DNA of 64,000 bases from Modestobacter sp. VKM Ac-2982. Its GTDB lineage: Bacteria; Actinomycetota; Actinomycetes; Mycobacteriales; Geodermatophilaceae. A program made the position numbers and the translations under genes. Under the pieces are notes generated by a model, which ran no database searches, had not been told where the DNA came from, and saw nothing but the letters and a program-made list of their open reading frames with translations. Below, piece by piece: positions 32,678-53,973 of the stretch (position 1 is the first letter of the stretch; the number at the start of each line of letters is the position of its first letter). Location: assembly GCF_026967935.1 (NCBI RefSeq), contig NZ_JAPVBL010000003.1, positions 186,001 through 250,000 of the forward strand, given 5' to 3'.

Positions 32678-33343
32678 ATGGCTGAACCCACGATCGCCGT
32701 CATGGACGTCGACGGCACCCTCGTCGACTCGAACTACCAGCACGCCCTGGCCTGGTACCGGGCGCTCCGCTCGCTGGGGGAGACCTTCCCCGTCTGGCGC
32801 ATCCACCGCCTGATCGGCATGGGCGGGGACCAGCTGGTCGCGGCCCTCGGCGGGGAGGAGGTCGAGCGGCGGATCGGCGACGAGGCCCGGGACAGGTGGG
32901 TGGCCGAGGTCGACCCGCTCATCGACGAGATCGCCCCGCTGCCCGGCGCCCGTGACCTGCTGGTGGCCATCAAGGAGCGTGGGCACCGGCTGGTGCTGGC
33001 CAGCTCGGGGAAGCCGAAGCACGTGGAGGTGTTCCTCGACCTCCTCGACGCCCGGGACCTGGCCGACGCGGTCACCTCCAGCGGCGACGTGGAGTCGTCC
33101 AAGCCGGAGCCGGACCTGCTGAAGGTGGCCCGGCAGATGCTGGGGGCCGCCGACGAGACCAGCAGCGTGATGGTCGGCGACTCCGTGTGGGACGTCGTGG
33201 CGGCGAAGAACGCCGGGATGCCGGCGATCGTCGTCCGCTCCGGTGGCTTCGGGGACGACGAGCTGCGCGACGCCGGTGCCGTCGGGATCTACGACACCCC
33301 CGGCGACCTCGCGGCAGCACTCGACGACACCCCGCTCGCCTAG
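32678..33343 (+). CDS. HAD-superfamily phosphatase (subfamily IA)
   Basis: 221 residues. Motif I DVDGTLVDSN (nucleophile Asp) at residue 10, motif II LASS near 108, motif III Lys in SSKPEPD near 143 and motif IV GDSVWDVVAAKNAG near 166 are all present, with a helical cap between. It resembles phosphoglycolate phosphatase or beta-phosphoglucomutase-like enzymes; the substrate is not fixed. It ends in TAG, so UAG still works as a stop in this organism. Confidence 0.88.
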   Translation: MAEPTIAVMDVDGTLVDSNYQHALAWYRALRSLGETFPVWRIHRLIGMGGDQLVAALGGEEVERRIGDEARDRWVAEVDPLIDEIAPLPGARDLLVAIKERGHRLVLASSGKPKHVEVFLDLLDARDLADAVTSSGDVESSKPEPDLLKVARQMLGAADETSSVMVGDSVWDVVAAKNAGMPAIVVRSGGFGDDELRDAGAVGIYDTPGDLAAALDDTPLA

Positions 33344-41235: not shown

Positions 41236-44200
41236 GTGAAGACGTGGCTGGATGCATGGCCGGTGTTCCGGCAGCTGACGGGTCCTGACCCGCTGGGGCG
41301 CGGCAAGGCCGCCCGCAGCAAGGCGACCGAGCAGGTGGTGAGCCGCACGGCCACCGCAGATCGCGTGGTGCAGTCGGTCTGCCCCTACTGCGCGGTGGGC
41401 TGCGGCCAGCGCGTGTTCGTCAAGGACGAGCAGGTCGTGCAGATCGAGGGCGACCCCGACTCGCCGATCAGCCGCGGCCGGCTCTGCCCCAAGGGCAGCG
41501 CGAGCAAGCAGCTGGTGACCAGCCCGAGCCGGGTGACCACGGTCAAGTACCGCCGTCCGCACGGGACGGAGTGGGAGGACCTGGACCTCGACACGGCGAT
41601 GGACATGATCGCCGACCGCGTCCTTGACGCCCGCCGCAAAGGCTGGCAGGACGAGGTGGACGGCCACGCCGTCAACCGCACGCTGGGGATAGCGAGCCTC
41701 GGAGGGGCGACCCTCGACAACGAGGAGAACTACCTCATGAAGAAGCTCTACAGCGCCATGGGCGCGATCCAGATCGAGAACCAGGCCCGCATATAGCACT
41801 CCGCGACGGTCCCCGGTCTGGGGACCTCGTTCGGTCGTGGCGGCGCCACGAACTTCCAGCAGGACCTGGTGAACTCCGATTGCATCGTGATCGAGGGTTC
41901 GAACATGGCCGAGTGCCACCCGGTCGGCTTCCAGTGGGTCATGGAGGCCAAGGCGCGGGGCGCGAAGGTCATCCACATCGACCCGCGGTTCACCCGCACC
42001 AGCGCGCTGGCCGACCTGCACGTCCCGCTGCGTGCCGGCACCGACATCGCGTTCCTCGGTGGGCTGATCAAGTACGTCCTGGACAACGACCTGGACTTCC
42101 GCGAGTACGTCGTCGCCTACACCAACGCGGCGGCGATCCTGCGTGAGGACTTCCAGGACACCGAGGACCTCGACGGCCTGTTCTCCGGCTTCGACCCCGA
42201 GACCGGGCAGTACGACGAGACGACCTGGCAGTACGAGGGCGTGAACGTGCCCTCCTCGGCCGGCCAGCGCTCGCCGAGCCAGCCGGGCGGGTCGGCCTTC
42301 CGTCAGGACGAGGAGGACCGGCCCGACGACGCCGCGGACGACGGCACCGACGACGAGACCGAGGGCGTCAAGGAGTCCGACCAGCAGCAGGGTGCCCAGG
42401 GCTCGGCCGACATCCACGGCAAGCCGAAGCGGGACGAGACGCTGCAGCACCCGCGCTGCGTCTTCCAGGTGCTCAAGCGGCACTACGCCCGCTACACCCC
42501 CGAGATGGTCGCCGACATCTGCGGCATCGAACCCGAGGTGTTCCTCAAGGTCGCCGAGTGGGTCACCGCCAACAGCAACCGCGAGCGGACGACGGCGTGG
42601 GTGTACTCGGTGGGCTGGACGCACCACACGGTGGGCGTGCAGTACATCCGGACGGCGTCGGTCCTGCAGGCGCTGCTGGGCAACATGGGCCGCCCGGGTG
42701 GCGGGATCCTGGCGCTGCGCGGGCACGCGAGCATCCAGGGCTCCACCGACATCCCGACGCTGTTCAACATCCTGCCCGGCTACATCCCGATGCCCCACGC
42801 CCAGCAGCACACCGACCTGGACAGCTTCTGCGCCTCCAGCGACGACCGGGTGGGCTTCTGGGGCAACATGCGCTCCTACTCGGTGAGCCTGCTGAAGTCC
42901 TGGTGGGGCGACGCGGCGCAGCCGGAGAACGACTTCGCGTTCGACTACCTGCCCCGGCTGACCGGTGACCACGGCACCTACACCACGGTCGCCGACATGA
43001 TCCAGGGCAACGTGCCCGGCTACTTCCTCGTCGGGGAGAACCCGGCGGTGGGCAGCGCCAACGGGCGGATGCAGCGCTTCGGCCTGGCCAACCTCGAGTG
43101 GCTGGTCGTCCGTGACCTGCAGATGATCGAGTCGGCGACGTTCTGGAAGACGGCCCCGGAGATCGAGACCGGTGAGCTGGTCACCGAGGACATCGCCACC
43201 GAGGTCTTCTTCATGCCCGCGGCCACGCACGTGGAGAAGGAGGGCACCTTCACCCAGACGCAGCGGCTGCTGCAGTGGCGGCACAAGGCGGTCGAGCCGC
43301 CGGCCGACTGCCGCAGCGACCTGTGGTTCTACTTCCACCTGGGCCGCAGGCTGCGGGAGAAGCTGGCCGGGTCCACCGACCCGCGGGACCGCCCGCTGCT
43401 GGACCTCACCTGGGACTACCCGACGCACGGGGAGACCGAGGAGCCCAGCGCGGACGCGGTGCTCCGGGAGATCAACGGCTACGACGCCGACGGCGAGATG
43501 CTCTCGACGTACCTGGACATGAAGGACGACGGGTCGACCAGCGGTGGCTGCTGGATCTACACCGGCGTCTACGCCGACGGGGTCAACCAGGCGGCCCGGC
43601 GCAAGCCCGGCCGGGAGCAGGACTGGGTGGCCGCGGAGTGGGGCTGGGCCTGGCCGTCGAACCGGCGCACGCTGTACAACCGCGCCTCGGCCGACCCGGA
43701 CGGCAAGCCGTGGAGCGAGCGCAAGGCCTACATCTGGTGGGACGAGGAGGCAGGTGAGGACGGAGCCGGCCGCTGGGTCGGTCATGACGTCCCCGACTTC
43801 GAGGCGACCAAGCGGCCGGACTACGTGCCGCCGGAGGGCGCGACCGCGCAGGCCGGACTGGGCGGTGCCGACCCGTTCGTCATGCAGGCCGACGGCAAGG
43901 CCTGGCTGTACGTGCCGGCGGGGCTCGCCGACGGCCCGATGCCGGCGCACTACGAGCCGGCCGAGTCGCCGGTGGAGAACGCGCTGTACGGCCAGCAGGC
44001 CAACCCGGGCCGGGAGGAGATCCAGGCTGCGTACAACCGGGGCAACCCGCCGCGCAGCACGGTCTACCCCTACGCGATGACCACCTACCGGCTCACCGAG
44101 CACCACACCGCCGGCGGGATGAGCCGCACGCTGCCCTACTTGTCGGAGCTCCAGCCGGAGTTCTTCGTGGAGGTCAGCCCGCAGCTGGCGCAGGAGCGCA

Positions 44201-44574
44201 ACCTGGAGCACGGCGGCTGGGCGACGTTGATCAGCGCCCGGACGGCGATCGAGGCCCGCGTCCTGGTCACCGAGCGGATCCGGCCGATGAAGCTCAAGGG
44301 CGGCCAGCTCGTCGAGCAGATCGGCATCCCGTACCACTGGGGTGAGCAGGGGCTGTCCACCGGCGACTCCGGCAACGACCTGTTCGGTGTCGTGATGGAC
44401 CCGAACGTGCACATCCAGGAGACGAAGGTCGCCACCTGCGACATCCAGCCCGGGCGGCGTCCGCGCGGCAAGGCGCTGGTGCAGTACGTGGAGGACTACC
44501 GGATCCGGGCGGGCGTGCAGTCGGGCCTGGTCCCCAGCGGCGGCCGGGCACCGATCGAGGAGGGGACGAGCTGA
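41236..44574 (+). CDS. fdhA: Formate dehydrogenase catalytic subunit, selenoprotein with UAG-encoded selenocysteine
   Basis: 1112 residues if TAG at 41794-41796 is read as selenocysteine (residue 187). It oxidises formate to CO2 at a molybdenum or tungsten bis-guanine-dinucleotide site. The N-terminal [4Fe-4S] site is Cys49, Cys52, Cys56 and Cys84 (CPYCAVGC...RLCPKG). The stop sits in ARI-stop-HSATV, exactly where Sec-type enzymes have AR(V/I)U-H, and similarity runs on in the same frame without a break (FGRGGATN, SNMAECHPVGFQW). No Tat signal is seen, so the subunit should face the cytoplasm. An extra 63-residue acidic, Gln-rich segment is inserted at 42241-42429. GTG 41236 (VKTWLDAWPVFRQLTG) matches the usual start. 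An 11-codon ORF then leads into fdhB. Confidence 0.93.
41794..41796 (+). other. UAG selenocysteine codon in fdhA
   Basis: In-frame TAG between Ile186 and His188. Both flanks are conserved active-site sequence of Sec-containing formate dehydrogenases, with no frameshift or loss. Ordinary bacterial Sec codons are UGA. Recoding of UAG to Sec has, as I recall, been reported for Geodermatophilus and Blastococcus with a tRNA-Sec carrying a CUA anticodon. Confidence 0.92.
41804..41829 (+). promoter_or_regulatory. Bacterial SECIS hairpin
   Basis: GGTCCCC (41808-41814), loop GGTCT (41815-41819), GGGGACC (41820-41826): a 7-bp stem extended below a single bulged C by CGA/TCG (41804-41806 with 41827-41829). 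It starts 11 bases after the TAG. From memory, the E. coli fdhF element also begins 11 bases after its UGA with GGU, carries a GGUCU loop and ends ACC. The loop G and U residues are those that SelB contacts. The hairpin is inside the coding sequence. Confidence 0.88.
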
Positions 44575-44609
44575 TGCAGCGCGACCCGATGGAAGAGGAG
44601 CGCTCGTGA
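44574..44609 (+). CDS. 11-codon coupling ORF between fdhA and fdhB
   Basis: MQRDPMEEERS. Its ATG overlaps the fdhA stop (TGATG, 44572-44576) and its TGA overlaps the fdhB start (GTGA, 44606-44609). A strong ribosome site (GAGGAGGGG) lies 8 bases upstream of the ATG inside fdhA, and its own codons contain GAAGAGGAG, the ribosome site of fdhB. It may work purely to pass ribosomes from fdhA to fdhB. Confidence 0.5.
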   Translation: MQRDPMEEERS

Positions 44610-45742
44610 CGACCGTCAGCTCGGCGAGCCCGGCGCTCACCGGCAACGACCCGGCCAACCGGCTCTACGGCCCGCTGCCCGACGTGAGCGGGGAGGCCGG
44701 TTACGCCGAGGACCACCCCGCGCGGGTGGGCTTCTTCACCGACACGTCGGTCTGCATCGGCTGCAAGGCCTGCGAGGTCGCCTGCAAGGAGTGGAACACG
44801 CTCCCGATGGACGACGCGGACGGCAACCGCGACGTCATGGCGATGACCGGGATGTCCTACGACAACACCGGGATGCTGGGGGCCAACTCCTGGCGGCACG
44901 TGGCGTTCGTCGAGCAGAGCCGGGCCGTCGACCTGCCGATGCCCGGGATCGGGCTGCCCGGGGCCGGTGCCGAGGGCGCCGGCGCACCCGCGGCGGGCTG
45001 CGGGAGCGGCGGAGGCGGCTGTGGGAGTGGTGGAGCCCCGGGCGACGCGCACGCCACGTCGCACGGCGGCAACGCCGACGGCGGGCTGACCGCGCAGTCC
45101 AGCGTGCTCAACGCCGAGGCGCTCAGCGAGTTCGACCCGCAGACCGGTCACTCGGCCGACCGGGAGATCCGCTGGCTGATGTCCTCCGACGTGTGCAAGC
45201 ACTGCACGCACGCCGGCTGCCTGGACGTCTGCCCGACCGGGGCGCTGTTCCGCACCGAGTTCGGCACCGTGGTCGTGCAGGGCGACATCTGCAACGGCTG
45301 CGGCTACTGCGTGCCGGCCTGCCCCTACGGCGTCATCGACCAGCGCAAGGACGACGGCCGGGTCTTCAAGTGCACGATGTGCTACGACCGGCTCACCGAC
45401 GGGCTGCAGCCGGCCTGCGCCACCGCCTGCCCGACCCAGTCGATCCAGTTCGGCGACCTCGACGAGCTCCAGGCCCGGGCCGACGCCCGGCTGGCCACGC
45501 TCAAGGAGCAGGGCGTCGAGACCGCCCGGCTCTACGGGCGCGACGAGGACGACGGCGTCGGCGGGGCGGGGGCCTTCTTCCTGCTGCTCGACGAGCCGGA
45601 GGTCTACGGGCTCCCGCCGGACCCGATCGTCACCACCCGGGACCTGCCGTCGATGTGGAAGCACGCCATCGGCGGGGCCGCCATGGTGGTCGGCTTCGCG
45701 CTCTCGGCCGTGCTGGGCTCACGCAAGGGGCTCGGGCGATGA
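44606..45742 (+). CDS. fdhB: Formate dehydrogenase iron-sulfur subunit
   Basis: 378 residues. It passes electrons from the catalytic subunit to the membrane subunit. Four cysteine clusters for [4Fe-4S] centres are seen: CIGCKACEVAC near residue 50, CKHCTHAGCLDVC near 197, CNGCGYCVPAC near 230, and CTMC...CATAC near 255-275. A hydrophobic segment (AIGGAAMVVGFALSAVLGS) near the end anchors it in the membrane. Between the first two clusters is an unusual 60-residue Gly/Ala/Cys-rich insert (around 44995-45055). GTG start preceded by GAAGAGGAG. Confidence 0.92.
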   Translation: MTTVSSASPALTGNDPANRLYGPLPDVSGEAGYAEDHPARVGFFTDTSVCIGCKACEVACKEWNTLPMDDADGNRDVMAMTGMSYDNTGMLGANSWRHVAFVEQSRAVDLPMPGIGLPGAGAEGAGAPAAGCGSGGGGCGSGGAPGDAHATSHGGNADGGLTAQSSVLNAEALSEFDPQTGHSADREIRWLMSSDVCKHCTHAGCLDVCPTGALFRTEFGTVVVQGDICNGCGYCVPACPYGVIDQRKDDGRVFKCTMCYDRLTDGLQPACATACPTQSIQFGDLDELQARADARLATLKEQGVETARLYGRDEDDGVGGAGAFFLLLDEPEVYGLPPDPIVTTRDLPSMWKHAIGGAAMVVGFALSAVLGSRKGLGR

Positions 45743-45754
45743 CCCTCCCCGAAG

Positions 45755-45776
45755 CACCAAAATGGCCATTTTGGTG
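45755..45776. repeat. 22-bp perfect palindrome with CCAAAATGGCCATTTTGG core (copy 2)
   Basis: Identical over 22 bp to the centre of the palindrome at 32608-32639. It lies between fdhB and the NrfD-type gene; its end abuts the GGAGGAG ribosome site (45777-45783). As RNA it can form an 11-bp hairpin just upstream of that site, or act as a DNA site or processing point inside the operon. Confidence 0.85.
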
Positions 45777-45788
45777 GGAGGAGCAGCT

Positions 45789-46889
45789 GTGACCGAGGGA
45801 CTGGTGACGCCGGGCGCCGGCTGGCGGCGGGCCGACGGCCCGCCGGCGCAGGTGCGGGAGAAGAAGCGGCGCAAGGGCGGCCGTCGCGGCGGTGGCCGCG
45901 ACGGTGACCCGACCGTCGACGAGGCGGAGTTCACCTCCTACTACGGCCGGCCGATCATCAAGCCGCCGGTGTGGAAGACCCCGGACGTGCCGCTCTACCT
46001 GTTCCTCGGTGGCGCCGCGGGCTCGTCGGCGGTGCTCGGTGCGATCGCCGACGTGACCGGTCGCCCGGCACTGACCCGGGCGGCGCACTACACGGCCGGC
46101 GGTGGGGCGCTGGCCTCGGTCGTCTGGCTGATCCACGACCTGGGCCGGCCGGCGCGGTTCCTGCACATGCTGCGGGTGATCAAGCCGACGTCGCCGCTGT
46201 CGGTGGGGTCCTACATCCTGGCGCCGTTCAGTGCCCTGACCGCGGTCACCGCCGGCATCCAGCTGCTGGAGGCCTTCCCCGGCCTGCAGAAGTTCGGGCT
46301 GTCGCGGATCGCCGGGTGGTTCCCCGGGTTGCGGAAGGTCGTGGGCACCACCTCGGCCGTCTTCGGTGGCCCGATGACCACCTACACGGCGGTGCTGCTG
46401 GCCAACACCGCCGTGCCGTCGTGGCACGAGCCGTACAAGGAGCTGCCGTTCGTCTTCGCCGGCTCCGGGATGGCCGCCGGCGGTGGCATCTGCATGGCGT
46501 TCACCCCGGTCGCCGAGGCGGGGCCGGCCCGGAAGATGGCCGTTGCCGGCGCGGCGGTCGAGCTGGCCGCGATGCACAAGGTCGAGCACGACCACGGCAT
46601 CGTCGGCGAGCCGTACCAGCTGGGCAAGGCCGGGAAGATGATGAAGGCCGCGAAGGCCTGTACCGCCACCGGCGCCGGGCTCACCGTGGTGGCCGGCCGC
46701 ACCCGGGTCGGTGCCGCCGTCTCCGGTGCACTGCTGGCGGCCGGTTCGCTGCTGACCCGGTTCGGCGTCTTCGAGGCCGGCATGGCCAGCGCCCGCGACC
46801 CGAAGTACACGGTCGTGCCACAGCGGGCCCGGATGGCCGCCCGCGAAGAACAGAAGCGCCAGGACGAGGCCAGCACCATCACCCGCTGA
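45789..46889 (+). CDS. NrfD-type membrane subunit of formate dehydrogenase
   Basis: 366 residues with eight or nine membrane helices after a long, basic, soluble head (first 45 residues rich in Lys/Arg/Gly). NrfD/polysulfide-reductase features: WKTPDVPLYLFLGGAAGSSAVLGAIAD, IHDLGRPARFLHMLRV and KPTSPLSVGSYIL. It passes electrons to quinone in place of the cytochrome b subunit of the E. coli type. GTG 45789 follows GGAGGAG; an ATG at 45762 lies inside the palindrome and is less likely. Confidence 0.9.
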   Translation: MTEGLVTPGAGWRRADGPPAQVREKKRRKGGRRGGGRDGDPTVDEAEFTSYYGRPIIKPPVWKTPDVPLYLFLGGAAGSSAVLGAIADVTGRPALTRAAHYTAGGGALASVVWLIHDLGRPARFLHMLRVIKPTSPLSVGSYILAPFSALTAVTAGIQLLEAFPGLQKFGLSRIAGWFPGLRKVVGTTSAVFGGPMTTYTAVLLANTAVPSWHEPYKELPFVFAGSGMAAGGGICMAFTPVAEAGPARKMAVAGAAVELAAMHKVEHDHGIVGEPYQLGKAGKMMKAAKACTATGAGLTVVAGRTRVGAAVSGALLAAGSLLTRFGVFEAGMASARDPKYTVVPQRARMAAREEQKRQDEASTITR

Positions 46890-47009: not shown

Positions 47010-48374
47010 CTAGGGCTCGACCGGAGCTCCCGACGGCGTCACCGGCGATGAGGCGTCGTCGGCCACCGTGTCGTCCAGCTCCGTCGGGGTCGGCTCCGTC
47101 GGCCCGACCGGATCGGTCGGGCTGGGAGTCGGCGTGGGCTCCGTCGGGGTCGGCTCGGGCTCGGTGGGGGTGGGCTCCGGGGTGGGGGTCGGTTCCGGCG
47201 TGGGCGTGGGAGTCGGCTCCGGGGTGGGCGTGGGGGTCGGCTCCGGGATGGGAGTCGGGGTGGGCTCCGGGTCGGTCGGGGTCGGCGTCGGGGTGGGGCG
47301 CGACACCGTGGGGTCGGCCGGGTCGGCCGGGTCAGCCGGGTCGGCGGGGTCCGTCGGCGTCGGCGCGGTGGTGCGGGTGCCCCCGCCGGACCCGGCGTCA
47401 CTCGCCGGCGGCTGGTCATCGGTCACGGTGGCAGGTGGCACGGTCGACGGCTCGCTGGTCGAACTGCCCGTCGAGGTCGCAGGTGCGGTGTCGGTCCGGT
47501 CCGGCTCGTCCGTGGACGTGCCGGGCCGAGACTCCGTGGCGTCCTCCGGAGACCGGTCGCGGGTGTCCGTCTGCACGGGATCGGCCGTGGGCGCCTCCCA
47601 GCCGGGGATGACGACAGGGGTGGCGAGCCCGGAGATCGCGGCCCCCTGGTTGAGGGCGTCCCAGGTCGCCGGGACCTGGTCGGGATTGGCGGCCAGCTGG
47701 GCGGCAAGCGGGTCGCTGAACCCGAGACTGCTGCTGGAGCGGGCCAGGACCGGTGCGAGCGCGATGGCCGAGAGTGCGGTGAGGGCGAGCAGGCGCTGTG
47801 GGACGCGGCCGTGCAGGCCCGACCGATGGGCCCCTCTCCGGGTCCACGCCGACCCGATGCGGCGTGCCGGACCGGTGGGCACTCCTCCCGCGCCGAGGTG
47901 CCTGGCCGGTCGGGATGGCTGGCGGGACGCCGCTGGGACGGCGACGGTGACGTGCCGCCGTGCACCTGCGGCGAGGAGGGCGCGGTCGGCGGTCCGCCGG
48001 GTCCCGCAGCACGCGCCCGCCGCCGCGCCGGTCACGCGGGGGAGGGGCGACCGGCTCGACGTGCTCGGCCGGCGTCGCGAGACGTGCCGCGCCTGCAGGG
48101 GGATCCGGTGGACCGGACCGCGGACCAGGCGGGCCGTGCCGGCTGCGGTGGTCAGCCGGTGCCGGGTGGTGGCGACACCCGGCCGGCCGGCCGGCGGACG
48201 GGAGGCGGGCCGGCGGCGCAGCCCCAGCTGACGGCCCCCGGCGCGGTGGGCGTGCGCGGCGCGGGGCAGCTCGTAGCAGTGGTCCGGTGGCACGTTCGCG
48301 ACGACGACGTGGAAGACGGCAGCAGCCAGCAGGCCCAGCACGGGCCAGGCGACCAGCAGCCACCACCACGCCAC
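47010..48374 (-). CDS. Membrane-anchored Pro/Thr-rich protein (paralogue 1)
   Basis: 454 residues if started at GTG 48374, which has GGGGGA six bases upstream. A hydrophobic helix (residues 2-26) is followed by a long basic, Arg/Pro-rich cytoplasmic-type stretch. A second hydrophobic segment (RLLALTALSAIALAPVLA) leads into RSSSSLGFSDPLAAQLAANPDQ, then about 200 residues of Ser/Thr/Pro sequence including ADP and PTPTPEP repeats. The second half is homologous to the gene at 49208. It is probably a surface or wall-spanning protein. The central basic stretch has no recognisable domain, so the true start could be later. Stop is TAG. Confidence 0.6.
   Translation of the reverse strand: MAWWWLLVAWPVLGLLAAAVFHVVVANVPPDHCYELPRAAHAHRAGGRQLGLRRRPASRPPAGRPGVATTRHRLTTAAGTARLVRGPVHRIPLQARHVSRRRPSTSSRSPLPRVTGAAAGACCGTRRTADRALLAAGARRHVTVAVPAASRQPSRPARHLGAGGVPTGPARRIGSAWTRRGAHRSGLHGRVPQRLLALTALSAIALAPVLARSSSSLGFSDPLAAQLAANPDQVPATWDALNQGAAISGLATPVVIPGWEAPTADPVQTDTRDRSPEDATESRPGTSTDEPDRTDTAPATSTGSSTSEPSTVPPATVTDDQPPASDAGSGGGTRTTAPTPTDPADPADPADPADPTVSRPTPTPTPTDPEPTPTPIPEPTPTPTPEPTPTPTPEPTPTPEPTPTEPEPTPTEPTPTPSPTDPVGPTEPTPTELDDTVADDASSPVTPSGAPVEP
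47130..47352. repeat. Coding tandem repeats (PTPTPEP and ADP units)
   Basis: Repeated GGGGTGGG/CTCCGG-type units on the plus strand encode Pro-Thr-Glu repeats on the minus strand, and four ADP units lie at about 47313-47352. Typical of length-variable wall-spanning stalks. Confidence 0.7.
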
Positions 48375-52681: not shown

Positions 52682-53566
52682 CTAGACGTATCGGTAGTTG
52701 AGTCGGTTGATGTCCAGGACGTCGGCCGGCGTCCGCGGCACGACCAGGCCCTGCATCGTGTCGTTGAGGTTGTGGCCGGTCGGGCCGCCGGATGCGGGCT
52801 GGTAGTTGTTCACGCCACGCATCCCCTGCCAGACCCACCAGAGCCGGTCCACGTTGCAGTGGGTCAGCCAGAAGACCGGGTCGTTCGGCGAGGTGCCGGC
52901 GAGCATGTCGCCGCCCACCCACCGGTGCACCAGGTTGTGCATGCGGGGGCCTCCGGACCAGCCCTCCATCCGGTTGCGGAAGGTGGCCACGCTGGCGTCC
53001 CAGGGGGACCTGTCGTAGGTGGTGTAGCGGTCGATGGCGTCGGTGACCTGTCCCGGGGTCGGCAGGCTGCTCGACCCGCGGGGGTCGCGACCGAGGAGCC
53101 GGATCAGGCCGGGGGTGGAGCGCGGGACGACGGCGCCGGTGCTGTTGTTGACGATCAGTGCCACCCAGTGCGCGAACGGCCCGTTGAGGACCCGGTTGCC
53201 CCGGGCCGGGTCGCCGTCGCCGCCGATGCCCCCCGCGGTCCACAGGGGCGAGCGTCGCGGGTCGCCACCGTTGAGCGCCGTGTCGTTCTGCCACCGCCAG
53301 TAGGGCATGCCCTCGATCGACGGGTCGACGGCCTGCAGGGCGTTCTCGATGTCCAGCAGGGTCGCCCGGTGCCACGGGAGGAAGGCGGGTGCGCGATGGG
53401 CGGCGTTGCGGGTGGAACCCGCCGGGGTGGCGATGTTCATCGCCTCGACGTGCTTGCGGATGAAGTGGTCGTAGGTGCCGTTCGCCTTCAGCACGTTGAA
53501 CGCCGAGGTGAGCCGCTGCACCTCCCCGGCCGACATGCTCAGGATGTTCCGTCTCGTCCCTGTCAT
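52682..53566 (-). CDS. Tyrosinase (type 3 copper oxidase)
   Basis: 294 residues, no signal peptide of its own. It oxidises monophenols and diphenols to quinones, giving melanin. Copper A ligands: HFIRKH near residue 33-38, AAHRAPAFLPWHR near 56-67. Copper B ligands: MHNLVHRWVGGD near 205 and SPNDPVFWLTHCNVDRLWW near 225-240. Without a signal it probably leaves the cell bound to the Tat-exported MelC1 protein. ATG 53566 begins MTGTRRNILSMS. Stop is TAG. Confidence 0.93.
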   Translation of the reverse strand: MTGTRRNILSMSAGEVQRLTSAFNVLKANGTYDHFIRKHVEAMNIATPAGSTRNAAHRAPAFLPWHRATLLDIENALQAVDPSIEGMPYWRWQNDTALNGGDPRRSPLWTAGGIGGDGDPARGNRVLNGPFAHWVALIVNNSTGAVVPRSTPGLIRLLGRDPRGSSSLPTPGQVTDAIDRYTTYDRSPWDASVATFRNRMEGWSGGPRMHNLVHRWVGGDMLAGTSPNDPVFWLTHCNVDRLWWVWQGMRGVNNYQPASGGPTGHNLNDTMQGLVVPRTPADVLDINRLNYRYV

Positions 53567-53973
53567 CAGGAAAACGCCCCTTCCACGGTGCCTCGCACGA
53601 GATCGTGAGTCGTCGACCGATCCCTGGTCTCGGGGGTCGGCTGGACTCTGTGACGAGACGGTGGTCCGAAGGGTGACGGCGGGTCGGCCACGAGCATGTC
53701 CGACCCTTCGACGACGGTTGACGGCAACACAGGTGAGTGCAATTCGGCCACCATTGATCCGCACTGGGAGTGCGAACGAGGTGGTCGACCACTCGTCAAG
53801 TCGTCGACACCATAGCCACATCTGTCTCTGCTAAGGACAGGGGTTCTCACGCATTTCTTTCCGTGATCGCGGAGTCACGATCTGCATTCTCAAATGTCAC
53901 TCATCGCGCACATTCGGTGACGCGATGGTGCGCCTCGCGGGCCCTCGGTCCCGTCGACGGATCGCCGGCAGGC
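53567..53973. other. Intergenic region upstream of the tyrosinase operon
   Basis: 407 bases, more AT-rich than neighbours, without a gene. It contains GTGGTCGACCAC (53781-53792), a perfect 12-bp palindrome flanked by ACGAG and CTCGT, a candidate operator about 215 bases upstream of the tyrosinase start. No promoter could be assigned with confidence. Confidence 0.4.

Follow-up and report, generated by a model that had tools for sequence, protein, structure and literature searches.

A UAG codon at the selenocysteine site of a formate dehydrogenase gene in Modestobacter sp. VKM Ac-2982

The analyzed window, a stretch of 64,000 nucleotides from the genome of Modestobacter sp. VKM Ac-2982, contains a gene for the alpha subunit of a formate dehydrogenase (FDH), followed on the same strand by genes for an fdhB-like iron-sulfur subunit and an NrfD-like membrane subunit (Table 1). 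For the latter, the NCBIfam search gave no match. Modestobacter is a member of the Geodermatophilaceae, and the FdhA sequence was found to match that of Modestobacter sp. VKM Ac-2984 (L068) at 99%. A family genome with identical match coordinates (G102) carries the label of this genus as well.

Table 1. Features of the window discussed in the text (positions are those of the window).
Feature	Position	Strand	Basis
HAD hydrolase, TAG as normal stop	32678..33343	+	protein family match
fdhA, formate dehydrogenase alpha subunit (FdhA), 1112 aa if TAG is read as Sec (U187)	41236..44574	+	Pfam, NCBIfam, structure alignments
ATA codon preceding the predicted Sec codon	41791..41793	+	ATA in 64/64 TAG loci and 14/14 further TAG copies
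In-frame TAG, predicted selenocysteine codon	41794..41796	+	frame, ortholog loci, alignment with solved FDHs
SECIS-like hairpin GGUCCCC-GGUCU-GGGGACC	41808..41826	+	covariation; weak Rfam match
fdhB-like 4Fe-4S subunit	44606..45742	+	TIGR01582, 182 bits, below cut-off 334.7
NrfD-like membrane subunit	45762..46889	+	PF03916, 43.5 bits, cut-off 25.8
Tyrosinase, TAG as normal stop	52682..53821	-	protein family match

The fdhA frame starts with GTG at position 41236 and ends with TGA at 44572-44574. The TAG is codon 187, located between the residues ENQARI and HSATV, and is the sole internal stop across the 1112 residues. That this codon occupies the selenocysteine (Sec) site of FDH, between ARI and HSATV, had been claimed in the original prediction and was confirmed by the frame and by the alignments with solved FDHs. 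Using phmmer, residue 187 was aligned to the non-standard residue X of 1kqf (nitrate-inducible FDH) and 1h0h, which we take to be Sec, and to a C in 9qm0, an entry titled selenocysteine-containing. The claim that the same frame continues past the TAG is borne out by the lack of any other stop and by a score of 1956 bits against the NCBIfam model NF041513 (formate_DH_Act; cut-off 1400), which places the protein in this family. In addition, three molybdopterin-oxidoreductase domains were identified with Pfam. A plain ORF list splits the gene at the TAG into two ORFs, as had been foreseen for annotation pipelines.

For the comparison of the Sec site, 110 FdhA loci were used, consisting of the best 30 loci of a survey of the Geodermatophilaceae and the best 80 named loci, which partly come from the same genomes. 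Among these best-matching loci the site is TAG in 64 cases and TGA in 46, and a sense codon was found in none. All TAG loci were assigned to the Geodermatophilaceae by record titles and family labels. The named ones belong to Modestobacter, Blastococcus, Geodermatophilus, Klenkia and one Frankiales MAG (L077), the match coordinates of which equal those of a family genome (G061). The TGA loci are named as other actinobacteria, none of them bearing the name of the Geodermatophilaceae or of its genera; two TGA MAGs (L131 and L147) have broad names only. In a FastTree phylogeny of 99 distinct FdhA sequences (54 TAG, 45 TGA), one branch with a support of 0.993 splits TAG from TGA, corresponding to one Fitch change. 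One TGA locus (L123, a Frankiaceae MAG) had been left out of this set by the length filter; it carries TGA at the Sec site and an in-frame TAG 456 codons downstream, which may reflect a broken gene or an assembly error.

The search for FdhA across the family resulted in matches for 111 of 112 Geodermatophilaceae genomes, and matches with one TAG were found in nine genera. Wherever the site was read in FDH copies with an overall identity of 60-71% (L161-L168), it is TAG as well. No close FdhA match was obtained for the genera g6, g7 and g8 of the family (best E value 1.2e-26). In genome G009, one copy (L050) contains a TGA in addition, and the FdhA copies of genome G080 are fragmentary, with a TAG or TGA that lies elsewhere than at the Sec site.

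The SECIS-like hairpin starts 11 bases 3′ of the UAG. It was analyzed in the 73 distinct 60-mers obtained from the 110 loci (38 TAG, 35 TGA). The six inner pairs are formed in all 73 sequences, and the outermost seventh pair is formed in 52 and broken in 21. The loop is GGUCU or AGUCU, with AGUUU in one sequence. Pair 21-33, which links the free third positions of a Val codon and a Gly codon, is formed in every one of the 110 loci and occurs in five types (C-G, G-U, U-A, U-G and G-C). A further FdhA copy (L174) shows a change from C-G to G-C at pair 24-30, with both sides changed. None of 500 shuffles reached the covariation score, and none of 500 reached the percentage paired; coarser measures were reached by shuffles, namely pair changes on both sides by 151 and further pair types by 135 of 500. 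The match to the Rfam model SECIS_3 is weak (41791-41852, 21.6 bits, gathering cut-off 63, E value 0.016), and the region is modestly more stable than its shuffles (z = −1.78; 10 of 200 as stable). Through its covariation, the hairpin qualifies as a putative bSECIS element after the Sec codon.

A pseudogene or a sequencing error, with the TAG ending a truncated protein, would agree with the fact that the frame is mechanically closed by this codon, but is considered extremely improbable. It conflicts with the distribution of codons at the site (64 TAG, 46 TGA and no sense codon among 110 loci), with the one-TAG matches across nine genera of the family, with the absence of other stops from the frame and with the covariation of the hairpin. 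A misread TGA, which the original prediction had named as an alternative, is very unlikely because the orthologs have TAG or TGA at the site and never a sense codon.

The genome (4.78 Mb, listed as 99.99% complete) contains one tRNA-Sec, detected with the Rfam tRNA-Sec model at 64.2 bits (gathering cut-off 47), the anticodon loop of which is CU-CUA-AA. Judged by their anticodons, the five other matches to this model are tRNAs for Ser (3), Tyr and Leu; one of them (L002) exceeds the tRNA-Sec cut-off, yet the general tRNA model fits it better. No UCA tRNA-Sec was found by the Rfam tRNA-Sec search of this nearly complete assembly. The tRNA-Sec(CUA) is adjoined on the same strand by selA (410 bits, cut-off 268) and selB (276 bits, cut-off 242), and selD is located about 8 kb away (389 bits, cut-off 125). 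The selD gene contains no internal stop that would make it a further UAG-Sec gene. All three components on which the predicted decoding depends, tRNA-Sec with a CUA anticodon, selA and selB, were found in the genome, and the contrary case, a tRNA-Sec with UCA only, does not apply, as the one tRNA-Sec found has CUA.

ARAGORN labels this tRNA as tRNA-Pyl, a label that goes with the CTA anticodon and would fit a decoding of UAG as pyrrolysine. Against this stands the match of the tRNA to the Rfam tRNA-Sec model as well as its identity to seven UCA tRNA-Sec of the Geodermatophilaceae at 77-82 of 92 positions. Furthermore, the best match for PylS in the genome reached 19.6 bits (cut-off 178), and the homologous structures have a non-standard residue at the site, presumably Sec. 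The probability of pyrrolysine at this position is regarded as negligible. Suppression of the UAG by a standard amino acid, e.g., Ser or Cys, would result in a non-selenium FDH. Ser-tRNA-Sec is an intermediate of the Sec pathway, and low selenium could yield some Ser; however, the full sel gene set is kept and a Cys or Ser codon was found at the site in 0 of 110 loci, and such a suppression is rated as very improbable. Selenocysteine is the preferred reading: it is highly probable that fdhA is a selenoprotein gene with UAG as its Sec codon and, judged by the genomic evidence, both the observation made in the original prediction and its interpretation are right.

The gene for RF1 (prfA) is present in the genome (466.6 bits, cut-off 423). 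Because of this, reading of UAG as Sec has to be context-dependent, as had been argued before, and UAG stays a stop too. Four genes had been listed as ending with UAG (32678, 47010, 52345 and 52682). A protein family could be assigned to two of them, the HAD hydrolase and the tyrosinase, and no Pfam match was obtained for the two ORFs with stops at 47010 and 52345. Position 32678 turned out to be the start of its ORF, the TAG of which ends at 33343; the TAG stops at 47010, 52345 and 52682 are all located on the minus strand. A GC3-filtered ORF count of TAG stops was discarded as useless, since shadow ORFs of the opposite strand were included in the count.

In line with the known bacterial pathway, SerRS would charge the tRNA-Sec(CUA) with serine, and SelA would turn Ser into Sec on the tRNA, using selenophosphate from SelD. 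SelB would bring the Sec-tRNA to the ribosome, with the hairpin marking the UAG. At the marked UAG the Sec-tRNA would beat RF1, and UAG elsewhere would still terminate. UGA would be left to termination in this genome, because no UCA tRNA-Sec was found in it.

For the best 30 tRNA loci of the family, the anticodon given by ARAGORN is CUA in 22 and UCA in 8. Seven of the eight UCA tRNAs (L009-L014 and L017) were found in g6, g7 and g8, the three genera without a close FdhA match, in assemblies of 190 to 550 contigs; these genera presumably keep the older (UCA) state. The exact pattern of the CUA anticodon arm was detected in 101 of the 112 genomes of the family, and in 0 of 9 genomes of g6-g8. 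Family genomes with a UAG FdhA have a CUA tRNA-Sec, except for two incomplete ones (G098 and G099, 72% and 80% complete) that contain a TAG FdhA without the CUA pattern. Between 23 CUA and 8 UCA tRNA-Sec, five positions were found to differ: two anticodon bases, an anticodon-stem pair (U-A to C-G) and one base of the D-arm. One sequence (L008) is shorter by a single base and is not fully in register in this comparison.

The eighth UCA tRNA-Sec is an extra copy in a genome (G059) with FdhA coordinates that match those of Geodermatophilus sp. LHW52908. It is divergent and is located at L151:1169-1263 (-), besides the CUA copy of the same genome. ARAGORN detected no further tRNA within the first 20 kb of the L151 contig, and no selA or selB was recognised by eye among the ORFs of the first 9 kb.

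In an order-wide sample, the CUA tRNA-Sec pattern was found in 76 of 397 genomes: 75 of 75 sampled Geodermatophilaceae, a sample without members of g6-g8, and a single genome from a different family (G230, 82% complete). The tRNA-Sec of the latter (L228:768-863, minus strand) is located on a contig of 4.8 kb, which shows 74-78% identity to Geodermatophilaceae loci in its best matches and is possibly misbinned or acquired by transfer.

A second UAG-Sec candidate in the same genome encodes an AhpC-like protein with the motif GDW-U-PYC (G000:C10:290414-291061). This protein was detected in 30 of 112 family genomes at E values up to 1e-20, with one TAG in 28 of the 30. In the other two (G104 and G029) the alignment covers only the part past the Sec site, and they are frameshifted there relative to the others. 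In two AhpC-like genes from two genera (L204 and L205), the frame is broken past the UAG by the same small difference in length. The hairpin region of the AhpC-like gene is not more stable than its shuffles (z = 0.52; 138 of 200). UGSC proteins were identified in 54 of 112 family genomes with a total of 95 matches, of which 72 contain a single TAG and 23 are free of stops; a TGA was found in none of them. No UGSC match was obtained in the source genome; this absence is probably real, because the same model detects the protein in 54 of the 112 family genomes.

The codon before the UAG of fdhA, ATA, is invariant in the TAG loci and in the further TAG copies (L161-L174; Table 1). Elsewhere ATA is avoided: in 30 of these fdhA genes, it makes up 23 of the 1177 other Ile codons. 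Of 20 Ile columns conserved among the 64 TAG genes, ATA is found only in this one and in one 34 columns earlier, where it accounts for 40 of 55 Ile codons; this second ATA lies 34 codons before the first, at 41689-41691 in the window. The codon before TGA in the 46 orthologs is ATT (34), GTT (8), ATA (3) or ATC (1). A weaker bias is seen for UGSC, where 44 of the 72 TAG matches were taken and 40 were readable, with GAT before the UAG in 26 and GAC in 14; the surrounding Asp codons (n = 231) are GAT in 6 and GAC in 225 cases. Two of the remaining four (L215 and L216) also have GAT before the UAG. The AhpC-like gene has TGG at this position in 28 of 28 in-frame copies. Given this TGG and the GAC of 14 UGSC genes, no single preceding codon is required.

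The bias suggests that the codon before UAG matters for the reading of UAG, and shared ancestry may explain part of it. As a tentative proposal, to which we give somewhat less than an even chance, reading of UAG as Sec would depend on the P-site codon plus the hairpin, and an ancestor of most family members would have swapped UGA for UAG and reset the preceding codon, perhaps to weaken RF1. A limited search of titles and abstract starts found no publication that deals with the codon preceding Sec codons in bacteria. A UCA tRNA-Sec in three genera of the Geodermatophilaceae and the constant ATA before the FdhA UAG were likewise not found in print in this limited search.

The survey suggests that the swap from UGA to UAG occurred inside one family, where both tRNA types live. 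In that case, the order in which tRNA, codon, preceding codon and hairpin changed would be open to experiment, and, given the genera with a UCA tRNA-Sec, the swap can be tested as a case of codon reassignment. The lineage is a natural case in which Sec is encoded by UAG, yet UAG is kept as a stop. For annotation, it is relevant that plain ORF calling splits UAG-Sec genes.

UAG-Sec with a tRNA-Sec(CUA) in the Geodermatophilaceae is said to have been described by Mukai and co-workers in 2016, reportedly including 75Se labelling or mass spectrometry. Passages of Santesmasses et al. (2017; PMC5330540) report the same combination for this family, with FDH included and B. saxobsidens named, as well as AhpC and UGSC proteins with Sec-TAG; for UAG-Sec they cite Mukai et al. 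(2016). Recoding of UAG to Sec in some species is also stated in part of a 2023 review (PMC10778597). The original prediction had mentioned reports of such recoding for Geodermatophilus and Blastococcus, which agrees with the family and the species named in these passages (PMC5330540). UAG-Sec in FDH of the Geodermatophilaceae is a kind of system already in print, and its novelty as a kind is low. The family, the anticodon and the gene (FDH) are the same as in the published case, and AhpC and UGSC have counterparts in the present survey. The present analysis adds a genome of Modestobacter and counts over 112 genomes of the family, and the source genome has an AhpC-like UAG gene and no UGSC match.

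The pyrrolysine system shares the CUA suppressor tRNA for UAG, whereas the tRNA found here is of the Sec type and no PylS was detected above the cut-off. The UGA-Sec FDH of other actinobacteria (e.g., Actinomycetospora, Amycolatopsis, Streptomyces) shares the protein family, the Sec site and the hairpin, the loop of which is GGUCU or AGUCU. It differs in the codon itself, which is TGA, and in the codon before it: 42 of the 46 loci have ATT or GTT there, compared to ATA for the UAG FdhA.
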